Positions 8,839-30,524 of a DNA stretch of 64,000 nucleotides are shown here, piece by piece (within the stretch, counting starts at the first letter, position 1; each line of letters starts with the position of its first letter). Both the position numbers and the translations under genes were made by a program. The notes under the pieces are model-generated. The model was given only the letters and a program-made list of their open reading frames with translations. It had not been told where the DNA came from and did not search any database. The DNA is from Hydrogenophaga sp. NFH-34 (GTDB lineage Bacteria; Pseudomonadota; Gammaproteobacteria; Burkholderiales; Burkholderiaceae_C). The stretch lies in contig NZ_JACBGE010000026.1 in NCBI RefSeq assembly GCF_021401345.1, forward strand, positions 1 through 64,000, given 5' to 3'.

Positions 8839-8934
8839 CCCATGCCTCATCTTGGACACGCTCGCGACCCTGACACGCCTTGCCCCTCCACCTGGCGGGC
8901 GGTCTGCACAGGATCGGCACCGACACCGGGTGCG

Positions 8935-8950: not shown

Positions 8951-8961
8951 TCTACGGACAA

Positions 8962-9012
8962 CGAGAGTAGAAGCGTTCAGCGGCCGAAACAGCCGCCCGG
9001 AAATTGCTCTTG
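8962..9012 (+). promoter_or_regulatory. Putative NMT1-motif (xanthine) riboswitch, copy B
   Basis: GAGAGTAGAAGCGTTCA is followed by the hairpin GCGGC/GCCGC and then CCGGAAATTGCTCTTGA; GAGAG at 8963 pairs with CTCTT at 9007-9011. It shares both loop blocks with copy A on the other strand, while the apical stem differs in sequence and length. It lies about 80 bases before the binding-protein start. No clear terminator follows, so control at the ribosome site is possible. Confidence 0.75.
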
Positions 9013-9092
9013 AAAGTCGTGCGGCCCAAGCCGTCCTTCGCACCTTCAGGAACGGGTCCCTCTGCGTGCCCGCTTGTTTTCGGAGTCCTTAC

Positions 9093-10118: not shown

Positions 10119-10125
10119 GGCGGCC

Positions 10126-11106: not shown

Positions 11107-11111
11107 CCTCC

Positions 11112-11145
11112 GGCCGGGCACAGCCCGCGTGCCCGGCCTGTTTTC
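11112..11145 (+). terminator. Strong intrinsic terminator after oxygenase copy B
   Basis: GGCCGGGCAC and GTGCCCGGCC form a perfect 10-bp stem with a 7-base loop, followed by TGTTTT. It lies 5 bases after the oxygenase stop. Confidence 0.85.
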
Positions 11146-11154
11146 GCTCCCCGC

Positions 11155-11598
11155 ATGAAACTCTTCGTCAACCTTTTCTGTACCGACATCGCCGCCCAGC
11201 TGGCGTTCTACCAGGCCCTGCTCGGCCTGCCCGAAGACAGCCACAGCCGTTCGCCGATCTACCGCGCGGTGGAAACCGAACATTTCCAGTTCGGCTTTCA
11301 CGCGCCCCCCGCCTACGGCGTGCTGCAACTGGCCGACCGCCAGCCGGCCGACCCGGCGTCGGCCCCCGTTACCGCCTACGCGACCTTCATGCTCGACAAC
11401 CCGGCCGAGGTCAATGCCGCCGCCGACCGCACTGCGGCGCTCGGTGGGCGCATCGTCAAGGGGCCCTACGCCACCTACTACGGCCAATGGCAGGCCGTGC
11501 TGGCCGACCCCGAAGGCCATGTGTTCCGCGTCAGCACCGGCACGCTCCCCGCAGGCGTCGAAGCGCCCGCGCTGACGCTGCCCGCCACGGCGTCCTGA
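11155..11598 (+). CDS. VOC (glyoxalase/bleomycin-resistance fold) family protein
   Basis: The 147-residue protein has the paired beta-alpha-beta-beta-beta layout of VOC proteins: FVNLFCTDIAAQLAFYQALLGL at the start and LADPEGHVFRVSTG near residue 118. The ATG at 11155 sits just after the terminator of the preceding operon, and there is no clear ribosome site. VOC proteins include metal enzymes acting on small diketones, thiols or ring systems; the metal ligands cannot be assigned with confidence here. Placement between the purine-oxygenase and urease genes is suggestive only. Confidence 0.75.
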   Translation: MKLFVNLFCTDIAAQLAFYQALLGLPEDSHSRSPIYRAVETEHFQFGFHAPPAYGVLQLADRQPADPASAPVTAYATFMLDNPAEVNAAADRTAALGGRIVKGPYATYYGQWQAVLADPEGHVFRVSTGTLPAGVEAPALTLPATAS

Positions 11599-11688
11599 AC
11601 CGCGCACCACCACGCCGATCCCGCGCCGCCTGATGGCCCTGGCCGCCAGAGCATTGGCCGCGGGCGGCAACCCCTACACTTGGCGCCC

Positions 11689-12519
11689 ATGCCCTGGCAA
11701 GCCCATCTCTCGCTCGACTACCGGCTGCAAGGCCAGCGCACGGTGTTGCAACACCAGCACGACGGCCCGCTGCGCATCTTCAAAAGCCTCTATCCCGAAG
11801 GCGACGCCATCTGCCACAACGTCGTGGTGCACCCACCCGGCGGACTGGTCGGCGGCGACACGCTGGAGCTGCAGGTGCACGCCGCCGCCGGCACGCACGC
11901 GCTGATCTCCACCCCCGGCGCCACGCGCTTCTACGCCGCCGACGACCTGCCCGCCACCCAGCGCGTGGCGCTCCATCTGGACAGCGGCGCGCGCCTGGAA
12001 TGGCTGCCCCTCGAAGCCATCGCCTACCCCGGCTGCGAAGCCGTCAACCACTGGACCGCCGAACTCGCGGGCAACGCCGAGCTGATCGCCTGGGACGTCA
12101 CGGCCCTGGGCCTGCCCTCGACCGGCCAGGCCTTCGACCGCGGGCGCTTTCGGCAGCGTCTGGAGATTCCGGGCCTGTGGCTGGAACAGGCCACGCTGGA
12201 CGCACACGATCAGCGCCTGCTCGACGCCCCCCTGGGCCTGGCCGGCCAACGCTGCCTGGGCACGCTGCTGCTGGCCTCGGGCACGCCGCTGGGGCGGCAG
12301 CGCCAGGAGCACCTGCTCGAAGCCGTGCGACAGGTGCTCGACCCCCTGCCGCCCGGTGTGCAGGCTGGCGCCACCTGCCCGAACCCGCAGATGCTGGTGG
12401 TGCGGGCGCTGGCACCGCTGGTCGAACCGCTGATGGCCACGCTGCAGGCCGCCTGGGCCGCCTTGCGCCCTGCCGCCTGGGGCGTGCCGGGCACGCCACC
12501 GCGCATCTGGCGAGTTTGA
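11689..12519 (+). CDS. ureD: Urease accessory protein UreD
   Basis: The 276-residue product is UreD (UreH), the scaffold that joins UreF and UreG on apo-urease for nickel loading. Diagnostic stretches are GGLVGGDTLEL near residue 50, TPGATRFY near 77 and LEWLPLEAIAYPG near 107. I chose the ATG at 11689 over a TTG at 11680; no strong ribosome site is visible and a TACACT -10-like element lies at 11675. In most relatives ureD sits directly before ureA. Here it is 13 kb away, separated by the oppositely directed urt and regulator genes. Confidence 0.93.
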   Translation: MPWQAHLSLDYRLQGQRTVLQHQHDGPLRIFKSLYPEGDAICHNVVVHPPGGLVGGDTLELQVHAAAGTHALISTPGATRFYAADDLPATQRVALHLDSGARLEWLPLEAIAYPGCEAVNHWTAELAGNAELIAWDVTALGLPSTGQAFDRGRFRQRLEIPGLWLEQATLDAHDQRLLDAPLGLAGQRCLGTLLLASGTPLGRQRQEHLLEAVRQVLDPLPPGVQAGATCPNPQMLVVRALAPLVEPLMATLQAAWAALRPAAWGVPGTPPRIWRV

Positions 12520-12643
12520 CCTTGCACCGCACCCGGGCGCAAACTGAGCGGTCTTTGCGGGCTTGTTCCTGCCGCCGGTCCAGGTCGGTTTGTGCACAAT
12601 GGGGCATGCCGTCCCGGAACCCGCTCCTTCGCCCGATCTGCCC

Positions 12644-14338
12644 ATGAGTGCCGAAAAGAGCGATCTGCAAGACGCGCGCGCCCTCGTCATCGACGGCAAC
12701 CCGCAGTCGCGCTCGATCATCGTCAACCAGTTGCGCGAAGCCGGCGTGGGCACCATCGTGCAATGCGCACGGCTGGTCGATGCGCGCAGCAAGCTCGAAA
12801 TGTCGAGCTACGACGTGGTGATCTCCGAACAGTATTTCGAGCGCGAGGAAATCACCGGCCAGGATCTGCTGGACGACCTGCGCCGCCACCAGTTGCTGCC
12901 GTTCTACACGGTGTTCGTGATGGTCACGGCCGAGTCCTCCTACAGCAAGGTCGCCGAAGCCGCCGAATCCGCGCTCGACGCTTACCTGATCAAACCCCAC
13001 ACCGCCGCCGGGCTGATCGAACGCATCCGGCAAGCACGCGAGCGCAAGGGCGCGCTCAAAGAGATTTTTGCCGCCATCGACCACGAAGACTTCGACGGCG
13101 CCGCCCAGATGTGCAAGGCCCACTTCGACGAGCGGCGCCCCTACTGGCTCTACGCGGCCCGCATCGGCGCCGAACTGATGCTGCGCGGCGGTCTGCTCAG
13201 CGAAGCCGAAAAGCTGTACGAAGCGGTGGTGGAGGCCAAAACCCTGCCCTGGGCCAAACTGGGCGTGGCCCGTGCGCAGCTCGAAGCCGGCTATCCGCAG
13301 CGCGCCACGACCACGCTCGAAAGCCTGATCGAAACCGAGCCCGGCTATTCCGACGCCTACGACGTGATGGGCCGGGCACAGTTCGAGCTGGGCAACTTCC
13401 AGAACGCCCTGGCCACCTTCCGCATGGCCACGCGGCTGACGCCCTCGTCGGTGAACCGCCTGCTCAAGCACGGCATGCTGGCCTACTACGCTGGCGAGCG
13501 CACCGAAGGGGTCGAGCTGCTGGACCGCGCCACGCGCGTCGGCCTGGACTCCAAGCTCTACGACCCGCAGGCGCTGGTGCTGCTGGCCTTCGCCCGGCTC
13601 GACGCCAACGACCACCGGGGCCTGATGCGCTGCGCCGACCAGCTCATGCACCTGCGCAGCCGCCACCCCGACAGGCCCCGGCCGCAGCGATTGCTCGACG
13701 TGGTGCACGCGCTGATCTACATCCACGAACTGCAGCATGCTCGGGCCCTGGAAGAAGTCCGGCGGCTGGCCAAGGACGTGCTGGAGCCGGCCTTCGATTT
13801 CGAGTCGGCCAGCAACCTCCTGGGGCTCATGACCCGCCTGGCGCTGCGTTCGATCCAGCTTTACGAAGTCGATGCCACGGTCGACCTGCTGGGTCTGCGC
13901 TTTTGCACCAGCCGTGCGCTCACCGAGCTGCTCGCCTGTGCCGCCGTCGGCCGCAACGACTTCATCAACCGCATCCGCGCCGGCCATGGCGAAATCCTGC
14001 GCCTGACCGAACAGGCCATGAGCCTGAGCCTCAAGGGCGACCCGCAAGGCGCCGTGATCAAGCTGCTCGAAGACGGCCAGCGCACACTCAACGCCAAGGT
14101 CATCGAGTCGGCCCACCTGGTGCTGCACCGCTACCAGCAGCGCATCCCCGACCACACGGCCTTGCTCGAACAGGCCCAGGCCCTGCGGGTGCGGTACCGG
14201 ACCACCGATGTGCATGCAGGGCTGGGGGAACAGAGCCACACCGGCCGCGCTGCGGGCGGCATCTCGCTGCCCACCGCCTACCGGCCACCCGCCCGCAACG
14301 AAGGCCTGCTCGCCAGCGTCAACGCCGTGGGCGCCTGA
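12644..14338 (+). CDS. Degenerate receiver domain fused to TPR repeats
   Basis: Residues 12-130 of this 564-residue protein form a response-regulator receiver fold and the rest is built of TPR-like helices (for example WAKLGVARAQLEAGYPQRA, DAYDVMGRAQFELGNFQNAL). The phosphoacceptor position is Glu62 (YDVVISEQYF) instead of Asp, and the second acidic residue near the N-terminus is Gly18, while the lysine of LIKP is kept. It therefore probably cannot be phosphorylated normally and may be locked in one state. An upstream in-frame ATG at 12599 is possible. Role unknown; it follows ureD on the same strand. Confidence 0.75.
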   Translation: MSAEKSDLQDARALVIDGNPQSRSIIVNQLREAGVGTIVQCARLVDARSKLEMSSYDVVISEQYFEREEITGQDLLDDLRRHQLLPFYTVFVMVTAESSYSKVAEAAESALDAYLIKPHTAAGLIERIRQARERKGALKEIFAAIDHEDFDGAAQMCKAHFDERRPYWLYAARIGAELMLRGGLLSEAEKLYEAVVEAKTLPWAKLGVARAQLEAGYPQRATTTLESLIETEPGYSDAYDVMGRAQFELGNFQNALATFRMATRLTPSSVNRLLKHGMLAYYAGERTEGVELLDRATRVGLDSKLYDPQALVLLAFARLDANDHRGLMRCADQLMHLRSRHPDRPRPQRLLDVVHALIYIHELQHARALEEVRRLAKDVLEPAFDFESASNLLGLMTRLALRSIQLYEVDATVDLLGLRFCTSRALTELLACAAVGRNDFINRIRAGHGEILRLTEQAMSLSLKGDPQGAVIKLLEDGQRTLNAKVIESAHLVLHRYQQRIPDHTALLEQAQALRVRYRTTDVHAGLGEQSHTGRAAGGISLPTAYRPPARNEGLLASVNAVGA

Positions 14339-14447
14339 ACGCGCCCCGTTGCACCCATGCCAGCCACCTGGATGCCCGCCTGCGCGGGCATGACGGGTAC
14401 GGCATGCCTGGCGCCTGCGAAGGCACGGAGCGTGAGGGGCAACGACC

Positions 14448-14533: not shown

Positions 14534-14563
14534 CGCGCCAGCGGCGGAGCGTGGGGGCTCAGA
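14534..14563 (+). repeat. 30-base direct repeat, unit 2
   Basis: Exact second copy of the unit at 14448-14477. It overlaps the stop codon of urtE, so the end of that gene is embedded in the repeat. Confidence 0.9.
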
Positions 14564-15257
14564 TCGCCACCAGTTGCCGGATGCCCTTGGCCTGCATCTC
14601 GCTGCCCGGGCCGCTGGCGATCACTTCGCCGCGCTCCATCACCACGTACTGGTCGGCCAGTTCTTCGGCAAAGTCGTAGTACTGCTCCACCAGCACGATG
14701 CCCATGTTGCCGCGGTCGGCCAGCATGCGGATGACCTTGCCGATGTCCTTGATGATGTTGGGCTGGATGCCCTCGGTGGGTTCGTCCAGGATGAGCAGCT
14801 TGGGGCCAGCAGCCAGTGCGCGCGCGATCGCCAGCTGCTGCTGCTGCCCGCCCGAGAGGTCGCCGCCCCGCCGGCCCAGCATCTGCTTGAGCACCGGAAA
14901 CAGCTCGAACAGTTCGGCCGGAATGGGCGTGCCGCCCTTCTTGTAGGCCAGCCCCATCTGCAGGTTTTCCTGCACTGTCAGTCGGGCAAAGATCTCGCGC
15001 CCCTGCGGCACGAAACCCACGCCCATGCGGGCGCGCTCGTACGGCGTGGCCTTGTCGATCGCCTTGCCGTCAAGCGCGATGTTCCCGCTCTTGATCGGCA
15101 CCAGGCCCATCAGCGACTTGAGCAGCGTGGTCTTGCCCACGCCGTTGCGGCCCAGCACCACCGTCACCTGGCCCAGCTCGGCCTTGAGACCGACGTTGCG
15201 CAGGATGTGGCTGCCGCCGTAGTACTGGTTGACGCCCTTGACTTCAAGCAGGCTCAT
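14559..15257 (-). CDS. urtE: Urea ABC importer ATPase UrtE
   Basis: The 232-residue LivF-type ATPase powers urea import with UrtD. It has Walker A GRNGVGKTT near residue 36, FVPQGREIFARLTVQENL, signature LSGGQQQQLAIARAL and Walker B LLILDEPTEGIQPN; EGIQPN is characteristic of UrtE. It is the last gene of urtABCDE, 10 bases after urtD, and its stop codon lies within a 30-base repeat. Confidence 0.95.
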   Translation of the reverse strand: MSLLEVKGVNQYYGGSHILRNVGLKAELGQVTVVLGRNGVGKTTLLKSLMGLVPIKSGNIALDGKAIDKATPYERARMGVGFVPQGREIFARLTVQENLQMGLAYKKGGTPIPAELFELFPVLKQMLGRRGGDLSGGQQQQLAIARALAAGPKLLILDEPTEGIQPNIIKDIGKVIRMLADRGNMGIVLVEQYYDFAEELADQYVVMERGEVIASGPGSEMQAKGIRQLVAI

Positions 15258-15267
15258 GCGTGTCTCC

Positions 15268-16143
15268 TCAGCGCCCCAGATAGACTTCGATCACACGCTC
15301 GTCGGCCTGCACCTCATCGAGCGTGCCTTCGGCCAGCACCGAGCCGTCGCACAGCACCGTGACCTTTTCGCTGATGGTGCGGATGAAGCTCATGTCGTGT
15401 TCGACCACCATCAGCGAATGTTTGCCCTTGAGGCTGAGAAACAGCTGCGCCGTGCGCTCGGTTTCTTCGTCGGTCATGCCCGCCACCGGCTCGTCGAGCA
15501 GCAGCAGCTTCGGGTTCTGCATCAGCAGCATGCCAATCTCCAGCCACTGCTTCTGCCCGTGGCTGAGCGTGCCGGCCAGGCGCGCCGCGCTGTCGGCCAG
15601 GTGGATGGTCTGCAGCACCTCGCCCAGGCGGTCCTTCTGCTCGCCGTTGAGCTGAAACGTCAGCGAATGCGCGACGCGCTTGTCGGTCGCCAGCGCCAGC
15701 TCCAGGTTCTCGAACACCGTGAGCTGCTCGAACACCGTGGGCTTCTGGAACTTGCGCCCGATACCCATGGCCGCGATGTCGGCTTCGCGGTGGCGCAGCA
15801 GGTCGATGGTGCTGCCGAAGAACACCGTGCCGCTGTCGGGCCGGGTCTTGCCGGTGATGATGTCCATCATGGTGGTCTTTCCCGCGCCGTTGGGGCCGAT
15901 GATGCAACGCAGCTCGCCGGGGGCGATGTCCAGGTTCAGGCCGTTGATGGCCTTGAAGCCGTCGAAGGCCACGTGCACATCCTCCAGATAGAGAATGCGG
16001 CCGTGGGTCACGTCGACCTCGCCGGTGGTCACCGGGCGGCCATAACCGGCGGTGCGCCCGCCGGATTCGGTGGCACCGGCCACCCGGACTGTGTGCAGCG
16101 ACTGCAGGCGCTGGGCGCCCGCTTCCATCAGATCGGGCGTCAT
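15268..16143 (-). CDS. urtD: Urea ABC importer ATPase UrtD
   Basis: The 291-residue LivG-type ATPase carries Walker A GPNGAGKTT, RKFQKPTVFEQLTVFENLEL, a variant signature LSHGQKQWLEIGM and Walker B LLLLDEPVAGMTDEET. LSHGQKQW and GMTDEE are typical of UrtD. An N-terminal stretch of about 45 residues before the ATPase fold is longer than usual. Its start overlaps the urtC stop by four bases (ATGA). Confidence 0.95.
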   Translation of the reverse strand: MTPDLMEAGAQRLQSLHTVRVAGATESGGRTAGYGRPVTTGEVDVTHGRILYLEDVHVAFDGFKAINGLNLDIAPGELRCIIGPNGAGKTTMMDIITGKTRPDSGTVFFGSTIDLLRHREADIAAMGIGRKFQKPTVFEQLTVFENLELALATDKRVAHSLTFQLNGEQKDRLGEVLQTIHLADSAARLAGTLSHGQKQWLEIGMLLMQNPKLLLLDEPVAGMTDEETERTAQLFLSLKGKHSLMVVEHDMSFIRTISEKVTVLCDGSVLAEGTLDEVQADERVIEVYLGR

Positions 16144-17273
16144 GCCGACTCTCCTTGCCCGGCCGCAGCCGGTGGGCGCCGAAGCTTGCGGACCAGCCCC
16201 ACGATGCCCTGCGGCATGAACAGCGTGACGGCGATGAACAGCGCCCCCAGGAAGTAGAGCCAGAACTCGGGAAAGGTCACGGTGAGCCAGCTCTTGGCGC
16301 CGTTGACCAGGAAGGCGCCCACGATGGGACCGACCAGCGTGGCACGCCCGCCCACGGCAGCCCAGACCGCGATCTCGATGCTGCCCGCCGTGCTCATTTC
16401 ACCGGGGTTGATGATGCCCACCTGCGGCACGTACAGGGCGCCGGCGATGCCGCACATGACGGCCGAGATGGTCCAGATGGTGAGCTTGTAGGGCAGCGGG
16501 TTGTAGCCGCAGAACATGACCCGGTTCTCGGCGTCGCGCACCGCCTGCAGCACGCGCCCGAACTTGGAGTTGACCAGCCAGCGGGCCCACAGGAAGAAGC
16601 CCAGCAGCGTCAGGCTCGTGAGCACGAACAGCGTCATGCGCATGCCCTGCGTGGCGATGGGCAGACCCAGGATGCGCTTGAAGTCGGTAAAGCCGTTGTT
16701 GCCGCCCATGCCGGTTTCGTTGCGGAAGAACAGCAGCAGCGCGGCGAAGGTCAGCGCCTGCGTGATGATGGAGAAGTACACGCCCTTGATGCGCGAGCGG
16801 AAGGCGAAGTAGCCGAACACGAAGGCCACCAGCCCCGGCACCAGCACGATCAGCAGCAGCGTGGCGATGAAGCTGTCGCTCAGCGCCCAGTGCCACGGCA
16901 ACTCCTTCCAGTCGAGGAACACCATGAAGTCGGGCAGCTCGCTCTTGTAGTTGCCGTCGGTGCCGATCTGGCGCATGAGGTACATGCCCATCACATAACC
17001 GCCCAGCGCGAAGAACAGGCCGTGGCCCAGGCTGAGGATGCCGGTGTAGCCCCAGATCAGGTCCATGGCCAGCGCACAGATGGCGTAGCACATGATCTTG
17101 CCCAGCAGGCCGACCATGTAGTCCGACAGGTGCAACGGGCTGTCGGCCGGCACCAGCAGGTTGAGCATGGGCGCCACGGCGCAGACCACCAGCAGGGCGA
17201 CGATGAAGGCGCTCCAGCCTTTGCGGGTGAGCAACGGGCCAGGCGCGGGGAGAGAAACAGAAACAGCGGTCAT
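16140..17273 (-). CDS. urtC: Urea ABC importer permease UrtC
   Basis: The 377-residue LivM-type permease has about ten membrane segments and conserved blocks GYTGILSLGHGLFFALGGYV near residue 92 and AVRDAENRVMFCGYNP near 245. The ATG at 17273 was chosen because the longer frame runs into an intergenic hairpin repeat. It is the second permease of the urea importer and overlaps urtD. The 124-base gap from urtB contains a REP-like hairpin. Confidence 0.95.
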   Translation of the reverse strand: MTAVSVSLPAPGPLLTRKGWSAFIVALLVVCAVAPMLNLLVPADSPLHLSDYMVGLLGKIMCYAICALAMDLIWGYTGILSLGHGLFFALGGYVMGMYLMRQIGTDGNYKSELPDFMVFLDWKELPWHWALSDSFIATLLLIVLVPGLVAFVFGYFAFRSRIKGVYFSIITQALTFAALLLFFRNETGMGGNNGFTDFKRILGLPIATQGMRMTLFVLTSLTLLGFFLWARWLVNSKFGRVLQAVRDAENRVMFCGYNPLPYKLTIWTISAVMCGIAGALYVPQVGIINPGEMSTAGSIEIAVWAAVGGRATLVGPIVGAFLVNGAKSWLTVTFPEFWLYFLGALFIAVTLFMPQGIVGLVRKLRRPPAAAGQGESA

Positions 17274-17397: not shown

Positions 17398-19014
17398 TCA
17401 TACTTCCCGGCCCTTGAAAGCGAAGATGCCCTGCGGCCGCTTCTGGATGAAGACGATGATGAACACCAGCACGGCAATCTTGGCCAGCACGGCGCCAGCC
17501 CAGCCTTCGAGGAATTTGTTGACCAGGCCCAGCCCCAGCGCGGCATACACCGTGCCCGCGATCTGCCCGACACCGCCCAGCACCACGACCATGAACGAGT
17601 CGACGATGTAGCCTTGGCCCAGGTCGGGGCCGACGTTGCCGACCTGGCTGAGCGCGCAGCCCGCCAGCCCGGCGATGCCCGAGCCCAGCGCGAAGGCATA
17701 GGTGTCGATGCGGGCGGTGTTCACGCCCATGCACGACGCGATGGGCCGGTTCTGCGTGACACCCCGCACGAACAACCCCAGCCGCGTGCGGCCGATGAGC
17801 AGCACCACGCCCAGCAACACGCCGGCCGCGAAGACGATGATCAGGATGCGGTTCCAGGGCAGCGTGACCAGGCCGTTCATGAAGGTGAGGCTGCCACTCA
17901 TCCACGACGGGTTTTCCACGCCCACGTTCTGCGCGCCGAACAGGCTGCGCACCGACTGCATCAGCACCAGACTGATGCCCCAGGTCGCCAGCAGCGTCTC
18001 CAGCGGCCGGCCGTAGAGAAAGCGGATCACCGTGCGCTCCATCACCGCGCCCACCAGGGCCGAAGTGATGAAGGCCACCGGCACCGCGGCCAGCAGGTAC
18101 CAGTCGAACCACCCGGGCAGTGCGCTGCGAAAGAACGATTGCACCAGCCAGGTGGCGTAGGCGCCGATCATGATCAGCTCGCCATGGGCCATGTTGATCA
18201 CACCCATGAGCCCGTAGGTGATGGCCAGGCCCAGCGCCGCCAGCAGCAGGATGGAGCCCAGGCTGATGCCGGTGAAGGCCTGCGAGACACCGCTGGCCAG
18301 AGCACGGGCGCTGTCCAGCGCCGCGATGGCGTCGGACAGGGCCTTCTTCACATCGGGGTTGCTTTCGGCGTCAAGGCGCTCGGCCAGCATCGGCCGCAGG
18401 CTGGGTGGGGCCTTGTCGGCCAGCACACGCGCCGCGCTCAGGCGCACCGCGTCGTCGTCGCTGGCCAGTTGCAGGATGGACCGCGCCTGCTCCAGGCTGG
18501 CCCGCGCTGCAGCCGCCAGCGTGGGCTGGGCCAACGCCTTTTCCAGCAGCGGCAGGCCCGAATCGTCGGCGTCTTCCACCGCACCCCGCAGCACCACCTG
18601 GGCCGCAGCCACCTGGCGGGCGGCATCGTCTTCGAACAAATCGTGCCCGGCCTTGGCCGTCGCCAAGGCACCGCGCATGCGGTTGTTGAGCAGGGCGTCT
18701 TCGGCCTCTTCCCTGACCGGAGCGGGCTCGCCCGTCACTGCGTCGATGGCCGAACCGTCGGCCTGCACGATGAGCACCTGCTCGCCCTGGAACTTGACCG
18801 CGTCGTCGGCCAGGGCGTTGATGAGCGCCAGCGCCCGGGGATCGTCCTCGGCCGCCAGCCGATTGAGCGCATCGATGCGCTCGTCGCTGGCACCCGAAGC
18901 CAGCACCAGCGCGTCTTCCGGCGTCAGCGCGTGCGCGGCGGTCGCACCGAGCACGCCACTCACGGCCACAGCCCCGGCAACCACAAAAGAACGCAACAGC
19001 CCGCGCATGGTCAT
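17398..19014 (-). CDS. urtB: Urea ABC importer permease UrtB
   Basis: This 538-residue protein has a signal peptide and a roughly 230-residue helical extracytoplasmic domain rich in Ala/Asp. A LivH-type permease follows, with GLAITYGLMGVINMAHGELI near residue 280 and VVVLGGVGQIAGTVYAALGL near 480. The long N-terminal domain is usual for UrtB in proteobacteria. ATG codons at 19014 and 19008 are both possible starts. It is the first membrane component of urtABCDE; the 204-base gap from urtA holds a hairpin repeat. Confidence 0.94.
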   Translation of the reverse strand: MTMRGLLRSFVVAGAVAVSGVLGATAAHALTPEDALVLASGASDERIDALNRLAAEDDPRALALINALADDAVKFQGEQVLIVQADGSAIDAVTGEPAPVREEAEDALLNNRMRGALATAKAGHDLFEDDAARQVAAAQVVLRGAVEDADDSGLPLLEKALAQPTLAAAARASLEQARSILQLASDDDAVRLSAARVLADKAPPSLRPMLAERLDAESNPDVKKALSDAIAALDSARALASGVSQAFTGISLGSILLLAALGLAITYGLMGVINMAHGELIMIGAYATWLVQSFFRSALPGWFDWYLLAAVPVAFITSALVGAVMERTVIRFLYGRPLETLLATWGISLVLMQSVRSLFGAQNVGVENPSWMSGSLTFMNGLVTLPWNRILIIVFAAGVLLGVVLLIGRTRLGLFVRGVTQNRPIASCMGVNTARIDTYAFALGSGIAGLAGCALSQVGNVGPDLGQGYIVDSFMVVVLGGVGQIAGTVYAALGLGLVNKFLEGWAGAVLAKIAVLVFIIVFIQKRPQGIFAFKGREV

Positions 19015-19111
19015 AAATGTCTTTTCAATGTGGGACCCAACCATCACCCCGAACCTCTCCCACCGGGAGAGGGAGCAAAAAACGCCGCAAACCGCGTGCC
19101 TTCACCCAGCA

Positions 19112-19218: not shown

Positions 19219-20481
19219 TTATTTCGTCGGCTCGTCCTTTTTGCCCTTGTTTTCAGGAATGAACGGGCTCCACGGCTGGGCCTTGACGGGGCCCTTGGTC
19301 TTCCACACCACGTTGAACTGGCCGTCGGCCTTGATCTCGCCGATGAACACCGGCTTGTGCAGGTGGTGGTTCTTCGGGTCCATGGTGGAAGTGAAGCCCC
19401 CTGGTGCCGGGAAGGTCTGGCCGGCCATGGCGGCGATCACCTTGTCGGTATCGGTCGACTTGGCCTTCTCGACCGCCTGCTTCCACATGTGGATGCCGAT
19501 GTAGGTGGCTTCCATCGGGTCGTTGGTCAGCGGCTTGTCCATGTGGCCCGGAATCTTCTTGGCCTTGGCGTAGTCGCTCCAGGCCTTCACGAACGCGGTG
19601 TTGGCCGGGCTCTTGATGCTCATGAAGTAGTTCCAGGCGGCCAGGTGGCCCACCAGCGGCTTGGTGTCCACGCCACGCAGCTCTTCTTCACCCACGGAGA
19701 AAGCCACCACCGGCACATCCGTCGCCTTCAGGCCCTGGTTGCCCAGTTCCTTGTAGAAGGGCACGTTGGAGTCGCCGTTGATGGTCGAGACCACGGCCGT
19801 CTTCTTTCCGGCCGAAGCGAAGGTCTTGATCTTGCCGATGATGGTCTGGTAGTCGGCATGGCCGAAGGGCGTGTACTCCTCCATGATGTCCTCGTCCTTG
19901 ATGCCCTTGCTGTGCAGGAAGGCGCGCAGGATCTTGTTGGTGGTGCGCGGGTACACGTAGTCGGTGCCCAGCAGCACGAAGCGCTTGGCCGAGCCGCCGT
20001 CCTTGCTCATCAGGTATTCCACGGCGGGAATGGCCTGCTGGTTGGGCGCGGCACCGGTGTAGAACACGTTCTTGGACAGCTCTTCGCCTTCGTACTGCAC
20101 GGGGTAGAACAGCAGGGCGTTCTTTTCTTCGTAGACCGGCAGCACCGACTTGCGCGACACCGAGGTCCAGCAACCGAAGGTCACGGCCACCTTGTCCTGA
20201 TCGATCAGCTGCTTGGCCTTTTCGGCGAACAGCGGCCAGTTGGAGGCCGGGTCGACCACCACGGGTTCGAGCTTCTTGCCCAGCACGCCGCCCTTGGCAT
20301 TGATCTCGTCGATGGCCATCAGGGCCACGTCCTTGAGCACGGTTTCGGAAATGGCCATCGTGCCCGACAGCGAGTGCAGGATGCCGACCTTGATGGTGTC
20401 GGCGGCGTGGGCCGAGAGGCCGAAGGCGCCCAGCGCGGCGGCGGCCGACAGGGCTTTGAGGGTAAATCGACGTTGCATCAT
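19219..20481 (-). CDS. urtA: Urea-binding periplasmic protein UrtA
   Basis: The 420-residue Leu/Ile/Val-type binding protein captures urea or short amides in the periplasm. It has a signal peptide ending AHA and the UrtA hallmarks IKVGILHSLSGTMAISETVL, KAVAVTFGCWTSVSRKSVLP-like core and FYPVQYEGEE. GGAGAAG precedes two adjacent ATG codons (20481, 20478). It is the first gene of urtABCDE. The 221 bases upstream carry two matching palindromes that may bind the response regulator encoded just before it. Confidence 0.95.
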   Translation of the reverse strand: MMQRRFTLKALSAAAALGAFGLSAHAADTIKVGILHSLSGTMAISETVLKDVALMAIDEINAKGGVLGKKLEPVVVDPASNWPLFAEKAKQLIDQDKVAVTFGCWTSVSRKSVLPVYEEKNALLFYPVQYEGEELSKNVFYTGAAPNQQAIPAVEYLMSKDGGSAKRFVLLGTDYVYPRTTNKILRAFLHSKGIKDEDIMEEYTPFGHADYQTIIGKIKTFASAGKKTAVVSTINGDSNVPFYKELGNQGLKATDVPVVAFSVGEEELRGVDTKPLVGHLAAWNYFMSIKSPANTAFVKAWSDYAKAKKIPGHMDKPLTNDPMEATYIGIHMWKQAVEKAKSTDTDKVIAAMAGQTFPAPGGFTSTMDPKNHHLHKPVFIGEIKADGQFNVVWKTKGPVKAQPWSPFIPENKGKKDEPTK

Positions 20482-20602: not shown

Positions 20603-20618
20603 TACGCCGGGTGGCGTA
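20603..20618. promoter_or_regulatory. Response-regulator operator candidate 1 upstream of urtA
   Basis: TACGCCGGGTGGCGTA is a 6-bp perfect inverted repeat with a 4-base spacer. A twin at 20664-20679 has the same arms. The arrangement and size fit LuxR-type dimers; the LuxR-type regulator gene ends at 20703. Confidence 0.6.
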
Positions 20619-20663: not shown

Positions 20664-20679
20664 TACGCCATGTGGCGTA
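20664..20679. promoter_or_regulatory. Response-regulator operator candidate 2 upstream of urtA
   Basis: TACGCCATGTGGCGTA matches the site at 20603 in both arms and lies 61 bp from it, near six helical turns. I saw no further copies in the window. Confidence 0.6.
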
Positions 20680-20702: not shown

Positions 20703-21773
20703 TCAGCCGCCGTGTTGCGGCCGCAGCAGCGGCACGCGGTTGATCGCCATCGCCGCGGCGGCGGTGCGCGTTTCCACCCCCAGTTTGGCGTGGATGCGCT
20801 CCAGGTGCTTCTTCACCGTGGCGGGGCTGGCGCCGAGGATGTCGCCGATGTCGCGGTTGATCTTGCCTTTGACGACCCAGTACAGCACCTCGGCCTCGCG
20901 CGCGGTGAGGCCGAAGGCCTGGGCCAGGGCTTCGAGCACGCTGGCGTCCGACGTTTCCTGCATGACGATGAGCCAATCACCGGGCTCGCCGACCCCGAGT
21001 TCGTCGGCCTCTTCGTCGCCCACGCGCTGGTGCAGCCGAAAGGTCAGGCGCCGTGGGCCCTGGTCGAGCGTGAGTCGCGGCGGTTCGGGGCGCTGGGCCG
21101 CATCGGCCGCCTGCAGCTCGGGCAGCAGGCGCGCCAGCCACTGCAGCACCACGTCGGGCGTGGCCGGGGCCTCGGTGCCGCAGTAGCGCAGCAGCAGGTC
21201 GCGCGCCAGCGGGGTCTGCCACATCAGGCGGCCGTCGCGTGCGCGCACGGTGATGGTGGCGTAGCCGAAGGCGTCGAGCGCGTTGCGCGCCTGGCTGCGT
21301 TCGACCGCGCCCTGGCGCAGGTGGCGCGCCTGCGCCAGGTGCACGCCCATGCGCGCGATCACTTCGCGCGGCTTGATGGGTTTGGTCACGTAGTCCACAC
21401 CGCCGGCGCCGAGTGCGGCCACCAGGTGTTCGGTCTCGGTGAGCCCGGTCATGAAGATGATGGGGATGGGCGCGGTGCGCGGGTCGGCCTTGAGCCGGCG
21501 CGCGACCTCGAAGCCGTCGATGCCGGGCATGACGGCGTCGAGCAGGATGACGTCGGGCCGCGCCTGCTGCGCACGCCGCACGGCGGCTTCGCCGTCGAGC
21601 GCGACCAGCACCGCAAAACCCGCGTCATCGAGCGCGTCGTGCAGCGGCGCGACGTTGTCGGGCACGTCGTCGACGATGAGCACCACCAGGCGGGATTCCG
21701 GCACCAGCACCACAGGCGGTGTCAGCGGATCGGGCGGGGACATGTCGGGGGAAGGAAGGTCGCTCGCGGCCAT
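20703..21773 (-). CDS. LuxR-type response regulator paired with the NCS1-kinase
   Basis: This 356-residue regulator has a receiver at about 30-150 with phosphoacceptor Asp79 (VILLDAVMPGIDGFEV) and Lys131 (VTKPIKP). A 130-residue middle region of PAS-like pattern follows (RNALDAFGYATITVRARDGR), then a C-terminal LuxR helix-turn-helix at 288-345 (LTAREAEVLYWVVKGKINRD). The ATG at 21773 is 4 bases after the kinase stop, so the two form one unit. It lies directly upstream of urtA and the twin palindromes there, which makes the urt operon its likely target. Confidence 0.88.
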   Translation of the reverse strand: MAASDLPSPDMSPPDPLTPPVVLVPESRLVVLIVDDVPDNVAPLHDALDDAGFAVLVALDGEAAVRRAQQARPDVILLDAVMPGIDGFEVARRLKADPRTAPIPIIFMTGLTETEHLVAALGAGGVDYVTKPIKPREVIARMGVHLAQARHLRQGAVERSQARNALDAFGYATITVRARDGRLMWQTPLARDLLLRYCGTEAPATPDVVLQWLARLLPELQAADAAQRPEPPRLTLDQGPRRLTFRLHQRVGDEEADELGVGEPGDWLIVMQETSDASVLEALAQAFGLTAREAEVLYWVVKGKINRDIGDILGASPATVKKHLERIHAKLGVETRTAAAAMAINRVPLLRPQHGG

Positions 21774-21777: not shown

Positions 21778-24700
21778 TCAGCTCGGTTCGTTCGGCAGGC
21801 GCGATGGTACGCCCGCCTGCAGCAGGCGCTGCTCGATGGCTTCGAAGCGGAATTCGCGCGCCATGGTGCGGATGCCCTGCGCGAAATCGGCCTGCTCGGG
21901 GTGCTGGCGCACCCAGTCGTCCAGCCATTGCACGATGCCTTTGTAGTAGCCCAGGCGCACCAGATCGAGCAGCGGCAGCAGGGCCTGGGCGTCGCCTGCG
22001 GCCCAGGCCGGCGCTTCGGACGCCAGCGGCGCGCGGGCGGGAACGGGTGTGGGCGCAGGCGCCTCGGCGTGCACCAGGTGCTGCCATTCCAGCCGCAACT
22101 GCTGGCCCAGCCAGAGCAGCAGGTCGTCGCGCCGCACGGGTTTGACGAAAAAGTCGGTGGGTGCCGCCTCTTCGGTTTCGGCCTGCAGACCTTTGTCGAA
22201 GGCGTTGGCCGACACGATGGCGGTGGGCACCGCACCCCAGCCACCGGCGCGCAGACGGCGCAGCGTTTCCCAGCCGTCGATGCCGGGCATGGCCAGATCC
22301 ATGAAGATCGCGTCGGGCGCCTGGGCACCGCCGGGCTGCACGCCCTCCAGCAGGGCCAGTGCGTCGTGGCCGTTGGTGGCCAGCATCACCTCGAACCCGA
22401 GCGGGCGCAACCAGTTGGCCAGCAGTTCGCGGTCGCTTTCTTCGTTGTCGACCACCAGCACCCGGCGGCGCGCGCCGGCATACCCGGTGACCGGCAGCGT
22501 GGGGCGCACGCGCCGCGCCGCCACGCCCTGCAGCGCCGGCAGGAACAGTCGCACGGTGAACACGGTGCCCGCGCCGGGTTGGCTGCGCACCGTCATCTCG
22601 CCGCCCATGAGGTCGGTGAGCATCTTGGCGATGGTCAGGCCCAGCCCGGTCCCGCCTTCGGGCCCGGCCGCAGCCACCGCGCCCTGCCCGCGCGCGAAGG
22701 GCTCGAAGATGCGTTCCATGTCGGCCGCGCTCATGCCCGGGCCGGTGTCGTGCACCTCGAAATGCGCCATCTCGCGCGCATGGCGCACGCGCAGGCGCAC
22801 CTCGCCCTGGCCGGTGAACTTCACCGCGTTGCCCAGCAGGTTGATGAGGATCTGGCGCAGGCGCTTTTCGTCGGCCCGCACCGCCAGCGGCAGGTCGGCC
22901 GGCGCGTCGAACACGAAGCGCAAGCCCTTGGCGGCAGCCTGCAGCTCGAACATGCTGGCCACCTCGCGAACCACGTCGGCAAAGGCCATGGGGCGCACGT
23001 CCAGCGCCAGCCGGCCCGACTCGATGCGGGCGATGTCGAGCGTGCCGTCGATGAGCGAGAGCAGGTGCTCGCCCCCGCGGTGGATGACACGGATGGCCTG
23101 TGCCTGGTGCTGCGGCAGATCGGTGTCTTCCTGCAGCAACTGGGCGTAGCCAAGGATGCTGTTGAGCGGCGTGCGCAACTCGTGGCTGATGGTGCTGATG
23201 TAGCGACTCTTGGCCTGGTTGGCCTGCTCGGCGGCGCGGCGCGCCTGCTGCAGGGCCTCGTCGGTGCGGCGGTGCGACTCGATCTCCTGCATCAGCAATC
23301 GGGTCTGGCGGTTCGACTCTTCCTGCGCCACCTCGCGGCTCTTGTGCGCCAGCACCAGCCACCAGGCCACGATGCCCGCGATCAGCAGCAGCACCGCGTA
23401 CACATGCAGAAAGCCGGCGCGCAGCGCGGCGTCGACCAGGCCGGCCACCGCCTGGGTCTCCAGCGCCTGCGTCTGCTGGCGGTACAGCAGGGCCAGCACG
23501 GCCGCCAGCAGCGGCGCCATCACCAGCATGATCAGCAGGTAGTGCGCCAGCCCGGCGCGCAGGTACGGCCACACGCGCTGCGGCAGCAGCATGCGCAGCG
23601 CCCCCTGCCACTGCACCGAGAGGCGCGCGTGGGGTTTGCACAGGTCGCCGCAGCGCGCGTCGAGCGAGCAGCACAGCGAGCAGATGGCGCCCTGGTAGGC
23701 CGGGCAGTGCGCCATGTCGGGGCCTTCGTAGTCCCGTTCACAAATCACGCACTTCAGCACGCCCAGCCGCCGATAGCCGCCCTCCTCGATGGAGGTCGGA
23801 GCGTGGGGGCCCTCTCCTCTGGCGATGTAGTAGCGCCCCTTCGTCGCCCACGCGATCAGCGGCGCCGTCACCAGCGCGGTCACCATCGCGATCACCGCCG
23901 AAAACGCCTGCGCCATCGCCCCCATCAACCCCAGGTAGGCCGCCACCGACAGCAGCGAGGCCAGCACCATCGCCCCGACGCCCACGGGGTTGATGTCGTA
24001 GAGGTAGGCGCGCTTGAACTCGATGCCCTTGGGGCTCCAGCCCAGCGGCTTGTTGATGACCAGGTCGGCCACCACGGCCATGATCCAGGCGATGGCGAGG
24101 TTGCTGTAGAGCCCGAGCACCTCGCCCAGCGCCTGGAACACGTTCATCTCCATCAGCATGAAGGCGATCAGCGTGTTGAACACCACCCAGACCACCCGGC
24201 CCGGGTGGCTGTGCGTCAGGCGCGAAAAGAAGTTGCTCCAGGCCAGCGAGCCGGCGTAGGCGTTGGTGACGTTGATCTTGAGCTGCGAGACCACCACGAA
24301 CAGCGCCGTGGCCGCCACCGCCCAGCCGTAGGGCAGCACGTATTCGTAGGCCGCCAGGTACATCTGGTTCGGGTCCACCGCGTGTTCGGGCGAGACCATG
24401 TGCGACAGCGCCAGCCAGGCCAGCAGCGCGCCTCCCAGCATCTTGAGCACGCCCAGGATCACCCAGCCCGGCCCGCCGGCCAGCACCCCGGCCCACCAGC
24501 GCCAGTGCTGGCCCGGCCGGGGGGCCGGCATGAAACGCAGGTAGTCGGCCTGTTCGCCCATCTGCGTGATGAGCGCGATACCGACGGTGAGCGCCGCACC
24601 AAAAAGGTTCCAACGGAAATCTTCACCCACCCCGGATTCACCACCGTAGTGCACGATGCCGGCAAAAGCCCCCGGGTCCATGATCAGCACGGCCGCGAAC

Positions 24701-25284
24701 GGCACGGTCATCATCACCAGCCACAGCGGCTGCGTCCACACCTGGAAGCGGCTGATGGCCGACACCCCGTGCGTGACCAGCGGAATCACCACCACGGCGC
24801 AGATCAGGTAACCCCAGGCGGGCGGAATGTCCAGCGCCAGCTCCAGCGCGTAGGCCATGACCGCCGCCTCCAGCGCGAAGAAGATGAAAGTGAAGGTGGC
24901 GTAGATCAGCGAGGTGATCGTCGAGCCGATGTACCCGAAGCCCGCGCCACGCGTGAGCAGATCCATGTCGACCCCGTAGCGCGCGGCGTACACACTGATG
25001 GGCAGGCCGGCCAGGAAGATGATGAGCCCCGTGGCCAGAATGGCCCAGAAGGCGTTGATGAAGCCGTACTGCACCAGCAGCGTGGCGCCCACCGCTTCGA
25101 GGATGAGGAACGAGGCCACGCCGAAAGCCGTGTTCGCCACGCGCCATTCGCTCCACTTGCGGAAACGCTGCGGCGTGTAGCGCAGCGCGTAGTCCTCCAT
25201 GGTTTCGCTGGCCACCCAACTGTTGTAGTCGCGGCGCACCTTGATGATGCGCTGCGGCGCGTCCACCGGCGCGGGCAAAGGCAT
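21778..25284 (-). CDS. NCS1 permease - Cys-rich module - hybrid histidine kinase fusion
   Basis: The 1168-residue protein joins four parts. Residues 40-480 are an NCS1-family transporter (purine/cytosine/allantoin/hydantoin type) with about 12 membrane helices and [15 protein letters not shown]. Residues 512-552 hold eight cysteines and a histidine ([31 protein letters not shown]). After two more membrane helices come a HisKA domain with His701 ([11 protein letters not shown]), an HATPase domain ([25 protein letters not shown]) and a receiver with Asp996 (IFMDLAMPG). The ATG at 25284 lies 28 bases after a predicted sigma-54 start. It is probably a transporter-like sensor of urea or a ureide, acting on the adjacent regulator. 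The ligand is inferred. Confidence 0.9.
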
Positions 25285-25322: not shown

Positions 25323-25338
25323 TGCAGATTTTGTGCCA
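25323..25338 (-). promoter_or_regulatory. Sigma-54 promoter for the NCS1-kinase gene
   Basis: The minus strand reads TGGCACAAAATCTGCA, one base from TGGCAC-N5-TTGCA with correct GG/GC spacing. Start is predicted near 25312. Confidence 0.65.
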
Positions 25339-25359: not shown

Positions 25360-25375
25360 AGGCACAGTATTTGCT
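25360..25375 (+). promoter_or_regulatory. Sigma-54 promoter for the urease operon
   Basis: AGGCACAGTATTTGCT matches TGGCAC-N5-TTGCT at all but the first base. Start is predicted near 25386, 38 bases before ureA. Confidence 0.7.
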
Positions 25376-25423: not shown

Positions 25424-25726
25424 ATGGAACTGACCCCTCGCGAAAAAGACAAGCTGCTGATCTTCACCGCCGCCCTGCTGGCCGAGCGCCGCCAGGCCCG
25501 CGGCCTCAAGCTCAACTACCCCGAAGCCATCGCGCTGATCACCGCCGCCGTGATGGAAGGCGCCCGCGACGGCAAGACCGTGGCCCAGCTCATGAGCGAG
25601 GGCCGCACCGTGCTGACGCGCGACGACGTGATGGAGGGCGTGCCCGAAATGATCCCGGACATCCAGGTCGAAGCCACCTTCCCCGACGGCACCAAGCTCG
25701 TCACTGTCCACACGCCGATCAGTTGA
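25424..25726 (+). CDS. ureA: Urease gamma subunit
   Basis: The 100-residue product is a full-length UreA ([50 protein letters not shown]). It packs with UreB and UreC in the cytoplasmic urease. It is the first gene of the plus-strand urease operon behind a sigma-54/NtrC-type promoter. It is followed by 125 bases containing a REP-like hairpin before hupE. Confidence 0.97.
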
Positions 25727-26464: not shown

Positions 26465-26770
26465 ATGATTCCCGGCGAACTCCTTGTTGACGACGGCGAC
26501 CATGCCCTCAACCCCGGCCGTGCCGGGCTGACACTGGTGGTGAAGAACACCGCAGACCGCCCGGTGCAGGTCGGCTCGCACTACCACTTTGCCGAGACCA
26601 ATGCTGCGCTGGCCTTCGACCGCGTCGCCGCGCAGGGCAAGCGGCTGAACATCGCCAGCGGCACCGCGGTGCGCTTCGAGCCCGGGCAACAGCGCACCGT
26701 CGAACTGGTGGACTTCGCGGGCGACCGCATCGTGTACGGCTTCCGTGGCCTGACGCAAGGCAAGCTCTGA
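26465..26770 (+). CDS. ureB: Urease beta subunit
   Basis: The 101-residue product is a complete UreB with the family blocks [27 protein letters not shown] and [17 protein letters not shown]. It forms the beta part of the (UreABC)3 enzyme. It lies 10 bases after hupE and 20 before ureC. Confidence 0.97.
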
Positions 26771-26790: not shown

Positions 26791-28509
<1,719 letters not shown>

Positions 28510-28528: not shown

Positions 28529-29131
28529 ATGCAACAAGTCTCCAAGCTCATCCCTCAGGCTCAAGGCCTCGCGGCCGTGCTCGTGCGCCGCGCAGCCACG
28601 GTCACGCTGGACTGGGATGTGCGCCAGAAAAGCCGCTTCGACGCCGAATCGTCCGAGGGGCGCCGTGTCGGCGTGTTCCTGCCGCGCGGCACCGTGGTGC
28701 GCGGCGGCGACGTGCTGGTCACGCAGGACGGATCGCTGCTGCGCGTGGTCGCGGCGCCGCAACCGGTGCTGCGCATCACCGCCTGCACCGACCACCACCA
28801 CGGACACGATCACGACCCGGCGTTCGACCTCATGCGTGCGGCCTACCACCTGGGCAACCGCCATGTGCCCATCGAACTGCGGCCCGATCATCTGAAGATC
28901 GAGCCCGACCATGTGCTGGCCGACATGCTGCGCGCCATGCACCTGAACGTGGTCGAGGTGCGCGAGCCGTTCGAACCCGAAGGCGGCGCCTATGCCGCCG
29001 GGCATGGCGGCCACGCAGGCCACAGCCATGGGCATGACCACGGGCACGCGCACGACCACCACCATGGGCATGAGCACAGCCACGGACAGGGTCACGGCCC
29101 TGGGCATTCCCACGATCATGACCACGGCTGA
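28529..29131 (+). CDS. ureE: Urease nickel metallochaperone UreE
   Basis: The 200-residue protein has the UreE peptide-binding and metal-binding domains ([35 protein letters not shown]) and a long His-rich tail from about residue 165 to the end, with repeated HGHDHGH-type units. The tail should hold several nickel ions. The Asp/Gly/His repeat DNA overlaps the ureF start by 14 bases. It delivers nickel to the UreDFG-urease complex. Confidence 0.96.
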
Positions 29132-29843
29132 GTCCACCAGCGCCATCGCTCCCGTTCCCCCGCCCGCAGGGCTGCTGCACACCCTCTGGCTGGCCTCGCC
29201 GGCGCTGCCGGTGGGCGGGTTCTCGTATTCCGAGGGCCTCGAAGCGGCCATCGACGCGGGCCTGGTGACCGACGAGCACAGCGCGGCCCAATGGCTGGTC
29301 GACCAGCTCCACCTGGGCCAGGCACGCAGCGACCTGCCCGTCTTTGCCCAGGCTTTCGCCGCCTGGCAGGCGCACGATCTGGAGCGCATTCGCGCGCTCA
29401 ACGACTGGGTGCTGACCACGCGCGAAACGCAGGAGCTGCGCCTGCAGACCGAACAGATGGGCCGGTCGCTGCTGGAATGGGCCCGCTCGCTGGGCGCGCT
29501 GGGCCAGGGCATCACGGACAGCCTGCTGCAGGCCCGTCTGGCGCCGCCCACCTACCCGGTGGCCATGGCCTGCGCCGCCGCAGCCTCGGGCGCCCCCCTG
29601 CCCCAGAGCCTCACCGGCTTCGCCTTCGGCTGGGCAGAGAACATGGTCCAGGCGGCCATCAAGTCGGTCCCGCTCGGCCAGGGGGCCGGCCAACGCATGC
29701 TGGCCCGTCTGGTGGGCGAGATCCCGGCTGCCGTCGAGCACGCCATCGCCCTGCCCGACGAACAACGCCAGGCCTTCACCCCCATGCTGGCCGTCCTCTC
29801 GGCCCGCCACGAAACCCAATACTCCCGACTGTTCCGGTCCTGA
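29118..29843 (+). CDS. ureF: Urease accessory protein UreF
   Basis: UreF activates the UreG GTPase cycle on the UreD-urease complex. The product is 241 residues from ATG 29118 and shows [42 protein letters not shown] and [21 protein letters not shown]. Earlier in-frame ATG codons fall in the His-rich ureE tail and give a threonine-rich low-complexity stretch, so they were rejected. It overlaps ureE and precedes ureG by 6 bases. Confidence 0.95.
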
Positions 29844-29849: not shown

Positions 29850-30524
29850 ATGAACGCGCTGCACCACATCCCGAACCGCACCAAGAACCTGCCCCCCCTG
29901 CGCGTGGGCATCGGCGGCCCCGTCGGCTCCGGCAAGACCACCCTGCTCGAAGTGCTGTGCAAGACCATGCGCGAGCGCTACGACCTGGTCGCCATCACCA
30001 ACGACATCTACACCAAGGAAGACCAGCGCCTGCTCACCGTGAGCGGCGCGCTGCCAGCCGAACGCATCATGGGCGTGGAAACCGGCGGCTGCCCGCACAC
30101 CGCCATCCGCGAGGACTGCTCGATCAATCTCGAAGCCATCGACCGCATGCTGGGCGACTTCCCCGATGCCGACATCGTCTTCGTCGAAAGCGGGGGCGAC
30201 AACCTCGCCGCCACCTTCAGCCCGGAGTTGAGCGACCTCACCATCTACGTGATCGACGTCGCGGCCGGCGAAAAGATTCCGCGCAAAGGCGGCCCCGGCA
30301 TCACCAAGAGCGATCTGTTCGTCATCAACAAGACCGACCTGGCCCCGCACGTCGGCGCCAATCTGGACGTGATGAAACAGGACACGGCGCGCATGCGCCC
30401 GGACACCGAGCGCCGCCCCTGGGTGATGACCAACCTCAAGACCCTGGCCGGCGTCGACGAGGTGGTGCGCTTCATCGAAAAGCGCGGCATGCTCACCGCC
30501 GCCCCGCAGAACGCGTCAAGCTAG
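29850..30524 (+). CDS. ureG: Urease accessory GTPase UreG
   Basis: The 224-residue SIMIBI GTPase supplies energy for nickel insertion. It has the P-loop GPVGSGKTT at 23-31, [28 protein letters not shown] with the CPH nickel motif, [17 protein letters not shown] and NKTDLA. It is the last gene of the urease operon; tRNA-Ser follows 25 bases after its stop. Confidence 0.97.

Follow-up and report, generated by a model that had tools for sequence, protein, structure and literature searches.

A permease-fused hybrid histidine kinase beside the urea uptake and urease genes of Hydrogenophaga sp. NFH-34 and its predicted role in urea and amide sensing

What would a histidine kinase read through a domain that is shaped like a transporter, and which genes would it control? 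The question is raised by a sensor kinase gene in a stretch of 64,000 nucleotides from Hydrogenophaga sp. NFH-34 (contig NZ_JACBGE010000026.1, positions 1 to 64,000; hereafter the window), where it lies, together with the gene for a LuxR-type response regulator (RR), between the urea ATP-binding cassette (ABC) transporter genes urtABCDE and the urease genes (Table 1). An earlier note on this DNA had proposed a receptor that reads a nitrogen compound and switches urea uptake. We conclude that the kinase is probably a transporter-derived, transceptor-like sensor of urea or amides whose RR would activate urt, the whole being under nitrogen control.

Domain order of the kinase and its regulator

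Translation of the minus strand gave a single stop-free frame of 1168 residues, the frame that the earlier note had reported with its strand left unstated. The plus-strand frame across the same positions (21778-25284) is likewise open, which is a by-product of the high G+C content. The signaling part was also as had been described: HisKA with the phospho-acceptor His701, HATPase_c, and a C-terminal receiver with Asp996 were all matched by Pfam models above their cut-offs, and this combination identifies the protein as a hybrid histidine kinase. A genome search found the permease part of the kinase in a single copy in the source genome. The RR gene starts 4 bases past the kinase stop, and its product is of the NarL/FixJ type, with a receiver (PF00072) and a GerE domain (PF00196) above cut-offs. 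This coupling, the position of urtABCDE on the kinase strand, and the divergent urease genes had each been noted before and were confirmed here by Pfam and NCBIfam matches. In the RR (window 20703-21773), residues from about 145 to 285, between the receiver and GerE, had no Pfam assignment.

The N-terminal 500 residues, which had been called a complete-looking NCS1 permease, matched no Pfam model at E<=10 (the PF02133 gathering cut-off was not reached and PF00474 was unmatched), no NCBIfam model at E<=1, and, in a sequence search, no PDB chain at E<=10. When a 56-row family alignment was compared by hhalign with four PF02133 proteins from related genomes, the two were collinear over 382 columns at 17% identity (Prob 98, E 2.3e-13), and comparison with three SSS/SLC5 proteins gave a Prob of only 14, both comparison sets being small. 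An intermediate was provided by L126, a standalone relative that shares 29% identity with the sensor domain over 480 residues and that scored above the PF02133 cut-off (36.4 versus 23.5 bits) and matched TIGR00800 below its cut-off (59.4 versus 353.1). A second standalone permease, from Acinetobacter johnsonii and 45% identical to the sensor domain, had no PF02133 match at E<=1. The sensor domain is therefore like the NCS1 permeases (PF02133, TIGR00800) in its collinear alignment and in having a relative that passes PF02133, but unlike them in that neither it nor the Acinetobacter permease matches an NCS1 model. Its hydropathy profile shows 11 peaks, compared to the 12 transmembrane segments of the LeuT-type fold of NCS1 permeases. 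On the basis of the profile comparison and of L126, we call it a divergent, NCS1-like permease domain and place it near NCS1 and not SLC5; the tie to NCS1 was thus upheld, with no direct match in Pfam, NCBIfam, or PDB. Membership in the SLC5/CbrA family was rejected on the hhalign result and the unmatched PF00474. Among the matches listed, the best named one to the permease part was from Hydrogenophaga flava (87%).

The permease domain is followed by eight Cys residues at positions 512, 515, 527, 535, 538, 539, 545, and 549. All 183 of the family kinase frames that were collected have the pattern C-x2-C-x11-C-x7-C-x2-CC-x5-C, followed within a short distance by an eighth Cys, and in 95 of the 183 the residue preceding the third Cys is His. 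The module had previously been described as having eight Cys and one His; the Cys residues were conserved and the His was not. Seven frames were shorter than 700 amino acids, two of them (L255 and L271) cut by contig ends and five of them real standalone permeases (L296, L190, L194, L295, and L126). All eight Cys are found in the standalone permease of L296, which has no kinase part, and four, the two outer CxxC pairs, in three others (L190, L194, and L295). The module therefore appears to go with the permease and not to be an addition of the kinase, and a role of its own as a redox input need not be assumed. L126 is without the module. No Pfam model matched the module, and its lone PDB match, to a zinc finger at E 6.6, was at chance level; that it binds zinc is a guess from the Cys pattern.

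Gene neighborhood, palindrome, and predicted nitrogen control

The kinase belongs to a family that, judging from the homologs collected, spans the Pseudomonadota. The permease part had matches in 114 of 200 genomes of a family draw (four weak, E 1e-5 to 1e-9) and in 56 of 398 genomes of a phylum draw (a few weak or partial), and the Acinetobacter standalone permease, used as the query, had matches in 18 of 369 genomes of a class draw (one weak). GTDB held at least 578 confirmed stretches, the best 80 of which were analyzed, and 534 plasmid records matched the permease part, 342 of them from Klebsiella. From the family draw we took 40 loci, picked for long contigs and for coverage of three identity bands; the phylum draw contributed 39 kinase loci and one standalone from 62 places, and the class draw contributed 14 kinase loci and one standalone. 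When a fixed rule was applied, nearby urea (urt/ure) or formamide genes were recorded in 40/40 family, 38/39 phylum, 67/80 GTDB, and 6/14 class loci. For full-flank loci, defined by at least 8 kb on each side, the counts were 39/39, 36/36, 49/57, and 5/8, respectively, or 129 of 140 in total, compared to 0 of 20 for other kinase loci of the source genome (13 to 19.8 kb each). The relatives keep the domain order, and its co-occurrence with urt/ure, which had been suggested as a check, was thus borne out with urea or formamide genes as the partners. At L301, two family kinases lie about 9.5 kb apart in one genome, and similar pairs occur at L044, L052, and L207; an amide binding-protein gene lies beside a second kinase at L301, and the amide genes found at L044 and L207 belong to the neighboring second family kinase.

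Two partner operons were found. Kinases about 57 to 66% identical to that of the window are mostly divergent from an operon for a Urt-like ABC transporter, FmdA, and FmdB; the FmdA of these amide-type loci was identified from its score (763 bits, NCBIfam formamidase cut-off 500) and from annotated operons on named plasmids. A third group of kinases (about 51% identical), which have no receiver-length tail, lies near FmdA. Since the kinase partner in L077, the one locus of this group examined, is a receiver-EAL protein of the c-di-GMP phosphodiesterase type (11770-13101), the sensors of the third group may feed a different output. Such neighborhoods could in principle arise by chance or by inheritance, with the kinase merely traveling with urea genes, and the loci are indeed related, most of the named ones being from Burkholderiales or near kin. 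However, the partners are two operons that are not orthologous, the link is seen in both orders and throughout the Pseudomonadota, on plasmids as well as on chromosomes, and the urea or amide label switches at least eight times on the tree described below. We disfavor this explanation as highly improbable.

A candidate operator was present in the same places. TACGCC-N4-GGCGTA occurs twice in the 5.18-Mb genome, both times upstream of urtA (reversed-pattern control, 1), and TACG-N8-CGTA occurs at seven places (reversed-pattern control, 82). Across 179 of the 181 loci (3.43 Mb), TACG-N8-CGTA had 113 sites, 103 of which were upstream of the kinase gene (46), urtA (46), fmdA (7), or an amide binding-protein gene (4), with 1 upstream of ureC and 9 elsewhere. 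Other spacers (4 to 7 and 9 to 12) yielded 5 to 13 sites in all in the 179 loci, with none, or in a single case one, upstream of the kinase. Of the kinase-linked loci, 33 of 34 have the palindrome upstream of urtA, compared to 4 of 29 kinase-less genomes (Fisher p 2e-12, kinship ignored). The latter set was drawn from 80 of the 86 genomes without the kinase and comprises their 30 best UrtA loci, minus one with too little upstream sequence. Two of the kinase-less genomes with the site (G062 and G174) encode an RR relative (46 to 47%) divergent from ureABC, with no kinase match within 1.5 kb; the palindrome appears to stay where the RR stays, even without the kinase. In the gap between the kinase and a divergent amide transporter, the exact palindrome was found in 39 of 47 loci, a number that rose to 44 of 47 when one of the eight fixed bases was allowed to differ; random 450-base pieces of the same amide loci contained it in 58 of 3580 cases. 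The inner bases varied with type, being GCC/GGC in urea loci and GTC/GAC in many amide loci, and were always near-palindromic, and several relatives carry the palindrome upstream of the kinase with 1 or 2 mismatches. We claim no further targets in the source genome, since a search with 1 mismatch gave 9 places, fewer than the 43 of the reversed-pattern control.

The palindrome might instead belong to another regulator, the kinase-RR pair acting elsewhere, and two kinase-less genomes do have the urtA palindrome with no RR detected. Nevertheless, it precedes two different operons that share the kinase-RR pair, in several classes, and even in the absence of the kinase it accompanies the RR. In addition, CrbR, the LuxR-type RR of an SLC5-STAC kinase, uses a similar-looking inverted repeat, which as printed has a TAC...GTC-like look (PMC5715377). 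We consider it very unlikely that a different regulator is involved.

Sigma54-type sites were scored as at least 7 of 8 positions of the consensus plus GG-N10-GC. In the 71 loci with a divergent ureA, such a site was found in the kinase direction in 54/71 and in the ureA direction in 54/71 (background, 0.02 per 300-nt strand), and for other loci the corresponding counts were 27/106 and 2/106. These sites suggest that the kinase and RR are made under nitrogen limitation. Control of ureA by the RR in the window was rejected, as the ureA-kinase gap has no palindrome with up to 2 mismatches. Since this gap lacks the palindrome, which lies instead upstream of urtA, the urease of the window is more likely to be under the predicted control of sigma54 than of the RR.

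Probable ligand class and mode of sensing

The strongest hint that this permease family may handle urea and formamide comes from the operon positions of the standalone permeases. At L296, the kinase is divergent from a standalone permease, FmdA, and FmdB, where most amide-type relatives have an ABC transporter, and at L194, an A. baumannii record, it is divergent from a standalone permease. On an A. johnsonii plasmid (L190), the standalone permease, annotated as an allantoin permease, is ahead of ureEFG, ureD, and ureABC, and at L295 it comes after ureABC and ureEFG. On a tree of 75 rows (at most 80% alike), the urea and amide labels changed at least eight times and were clustered, none of 500 shuffles giving as low a value for either label, and L296, L190, and L295 fell outside the kinases (SH-aLRT 97). 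The order of events on the tree is tentative, the root hanging on one very long branch, L126. The distant standalone NCS1 permease of that locus (L126:7949-12373) has as its neighbors a carbon-nitrogen hydrolase and an AmiC/UrtA-like binding protein.

NCS1 permeases, among them Mhp1 and PucI, canonically have nucleobases, allantoin, and hydantoins as substrates. A purine, allantoin, or hydantoin ligand had been put forward for the window kinase and gained no support; because the second partner operon, the more widely spread one on the tree, is a formamide operon, we infer a ligand of another class, urea or short-chain amides. In the mechanism that we propose, the ligand (urea and, in relatives, formamide or other short-chain amides) would bind directly to the NCS1-like permease domain and change its conformation. 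The cytoplasmic eight-Cys module and the transmembrane (TM) hairpin would relay this change to the hybrid kinase, the signal running from permease to kinase, and the kinase would phosphorylate the LuxR-type RR encoded 4 bases later. The RR would then bind the two copies of TACGCC-N4-GGCGTA upstream of urtA and activate, rather than repress, urtABCDE, and the divergent sigma54-type promoters of the kinase gene and urease would let general nitrogen limitation set the background for this specific signal. The earlier idea of a nitrogen receptor that switches urea uptake is thus retained in its link to nitrogen and its wiring to urea uptake (129/140 loci and an RR-following palindrome upstream of urtA), with the class of ligand changed.

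The permease domain may also transport, and at the extreme the protein would be mainly a transporter, a working transceptor whose kinase part reports the flux of urea or amides through the NCS1 domain. Standalone permeases of the family do replace the transporter in urease and formamidase operons, and the SLC5 domain of CbrA transports histidine (PMC13022988); however, most loci have genes for a dedicated transporter of urea or amides close by, and the transporter part of CbrA alone gave no growth on histidine (PMC13022988). We regard flux as an unlikely signal.

A direct ligand of the permease domain also has to be weighed against other inputs that the domain might sense: a nitrogen signal that is internal or indirect or, in the way of the transporter-coupled kinases BceS and DcuS, the working state of the Urt or Fmd ABC transporter. 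Specificity columns were sought in 64 labeled rows, with about five independent pairs per sampled pairing, and none was convincing, the best by eye being A448 (in the script's own numbering). Urea- and amide-type sensors are thus without clear differences in such columns, and their label switches on the tree at least eight times, as a shared signal would allow; transporter-coupled kinases are mentioned in PMC11109136. Conversely, L296 and the A. baumannii locus have no ABC transporter beside the kinase and have a same-family standalone permease instead, and many kinases lie wholly apart from urt. An indirect signal of this kind seems to us quite improbable.

Several observations count against a urea or amide sensor that acts on urt. 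Homologs away from nitrogen genes, which the earlier note had said would speak against the link, do exist as a minority: 11 of the 140 full-flank loci have no urea or formamide neighbors. Eight of these were among the 57 of the GTDB draw (L217, L241, L244, L250, L253, L254, L267, and L270, mostly relatives of Zoogloea, Denitromonas, and Azonexus) and three among the 8 of the class draw (L298, L299, and L301), and the kinase-RR pair persists in most of the 11. The urtA palindrome is present in G112 (76% complete) and G027, two kinase-less genomes in which no RR was detected at E<=1e-60, and missing from G084, which encodes an RR relative (50%). The palindrome is also absent, with up to 2 mismatches allowed, from the window's own ureA-kinase gap, and the palindrome and neighborhood counts ignore kinship. 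Finally, once inheritance is allowed for, no permease column tells the urea and amide types of sensor apart, so that both may share a single ligand.

Urea or amide sensing by the kinase, with activation of urt by its RR, is nonetheless the explanation that we favor. We see an even chance that a broader statement holds: that a histidine kinase captured an NCS1-type urea/amide permease with a cytoplasmic eight-Cys module, giving rise to a transceptor family of the Pseudomonadota, with its own DNA code, TACG-N8-CGTA, controlling urea and formamide uptake, and that the standalone permeases are an unnamed route of urea and formamide uptake.

Related systems and neighboring features

Taken together, the sequences describe what appears to be a real, conserved, and coherent sensory system, akin to the transporter-fused sensor kinases and with urea or amides as its presumed ligands. 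The closest in kind to the window kinase are the SLC5-STAC kinases CbrA, CrbS, and RpuS, which likewise have a transporter domain N-terminal to a histidine kinase (PMC13022988, PMC5715377, PMC9100948). CrbS is, in addition, a hybrid kinase with a LuxR-type RR acting via an inverted repeat, like the window pair (PMC5715377). The three differ from the window kinase in having SLC5 where it is NCS1-like, STAC where its linker has the eight-Cys module and TM hairpin, and histidine, acetate, or pyruvate as signals where it would respond to urea or amides. Ks-Amt5 is, like the window kinase, a nitrogen-compound transporter turned sensor kinase but has an Amt/Rh fold and an ammonium ligand and is from an anammox bacterium (PMC5764959).

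The fmd genes are induced by formamide and urea and repressed by ammonia (cited in PMC10781810), and this physiology is what the kinase family would explain. Unlike for the window system, no sensor kinase is mentioned for fmdCABDEF of Methylophilus methylotrophus in the available part of the source that cites it (PMC10781810). In Pseudomonas veronii, urtABCDE occurs with fmdA, fmdB, and amiE and formamide uptake has been suggested, this kinase going unmentioned in the available part of the report (PMC13209695). In the open-licence literature searched, to the extent that its texts were available, neither an NCS1-type sensor kinase nor a urea/formamide sensor kinase of this sort was the subject of any paper that we found. 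Induction of urea and formamide uptake by substrate has been known for decades, without a dedicated sensor in the literature found, and the family would offer one together with a predicted operator. If our interpretation is right, transporter-derived sensor kinases would extend to a third transporter family, and nature would provide a set of paired transporters and sensors that share one fold. Many conjugative Klebsiella plasmids carry the family, so the trait would move between bacteria. On the Klebsiella pneumoniae plasmid pGN4549-1 (L189, about 4897-14369), a conjugative IncF plasmid, clpK and fec genes are close to a family kinase and to genes for a formamidase and a Urt-like ABC transporter.

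Table 1. Positions in the window of the kinase gene, its encoded domains, and the genes and sites around it
Feature	Position	Strand	Basis or remark
Sensor kinase gene (permease/Cys module/TM hairpin/HisKA/HATPase_c/receiver)	21778..25284	-	Stop-free 1168-aa translation and Pfam
N-terminal permease-like domain, NCS1-like, residues 1-500	23785..25284	-	11 hydropathy peaks (residues 53-478); hhalign to NCS1
Eight-Cys module, residues 512-549, C-x2-C-x11-C-x7-C-x2-CC-x5-C-x3-C	23638..23751	-	Pattern conserved in family
Two hydrophobic segments (TM hairpin), residues 582-600 and 628-646	23347..23541	-	Hydropathy only; between Cys module and kinase
HisKA, residues 691-757, phospho-acceptor His701	23014..23214	-	Pfam
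HATPase_c, residues 805-915	22540..22872	-	Pfam
Receiver (Response_reg), residues 942-1056, Asp996	22117..22461	-	Pfam
LuxR-type RR gene, 356 aa	20703..21773	-	Response_reg and GerE, Pfam; ATG at 21773
Palindrome TACGCC-N4-GGCGTA	20664..20679	.	183 bases upstream of urtA ATG
Palindrome TACGCC-N4-GGCGTA	20603..20618	.	122 bases upstream of urtA ATG
Candidate sigma54 promoter of kinase gene, TGGCACAAAATCTGCA	25323..25338	-	8/8 scored positions and GG/GC
Candidate sigma54 promoter of ureA, AGGCACAGTATTTGCT	25360..25375	+	7/8 scored positions and GG/GC
urtA, urea ABC transporter binding protein	19219..20481	-	TIGR03407, 598 bits, cut-off 493
urtB, long N-terminal extension, start codon not settled	17398..19047	-	TIGR03409 above cut-off, residues 255-547
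urtC, start set at open frame's internal Met	16140..17273	-	BPD_transp_2 (Pfam); urtC by position and use as query
urtD, start codon not settled	15268..16143	-	TIGR03411 above cut-off
urtE	14559..15257	-	TIGR03410 above cut-off
ureA	25424..25726	+	Urease_gamma (Pfam); ATG position
ureB	26465-26770	+	Pfam
ureC	26791-28509	+	Pfam
ureE	28529-29131	+	Pfam
ureF	within 28992-29843	+	Pfam
ureG	29850-30524	+	NCBIfam

Further features of the window were recorded in passing. UrtB has about 250 residues ahead of its permease part, with a weak HEAT_2 match. A 748-aa frame on the minus strand (36897-39143) has a Tle1-like phospholipase domain just over the cut-off (34.1 versus 27 bits), and a separate 908-aa PAS-rich histidine kinase is encoded on the plus strand (45482-48208).

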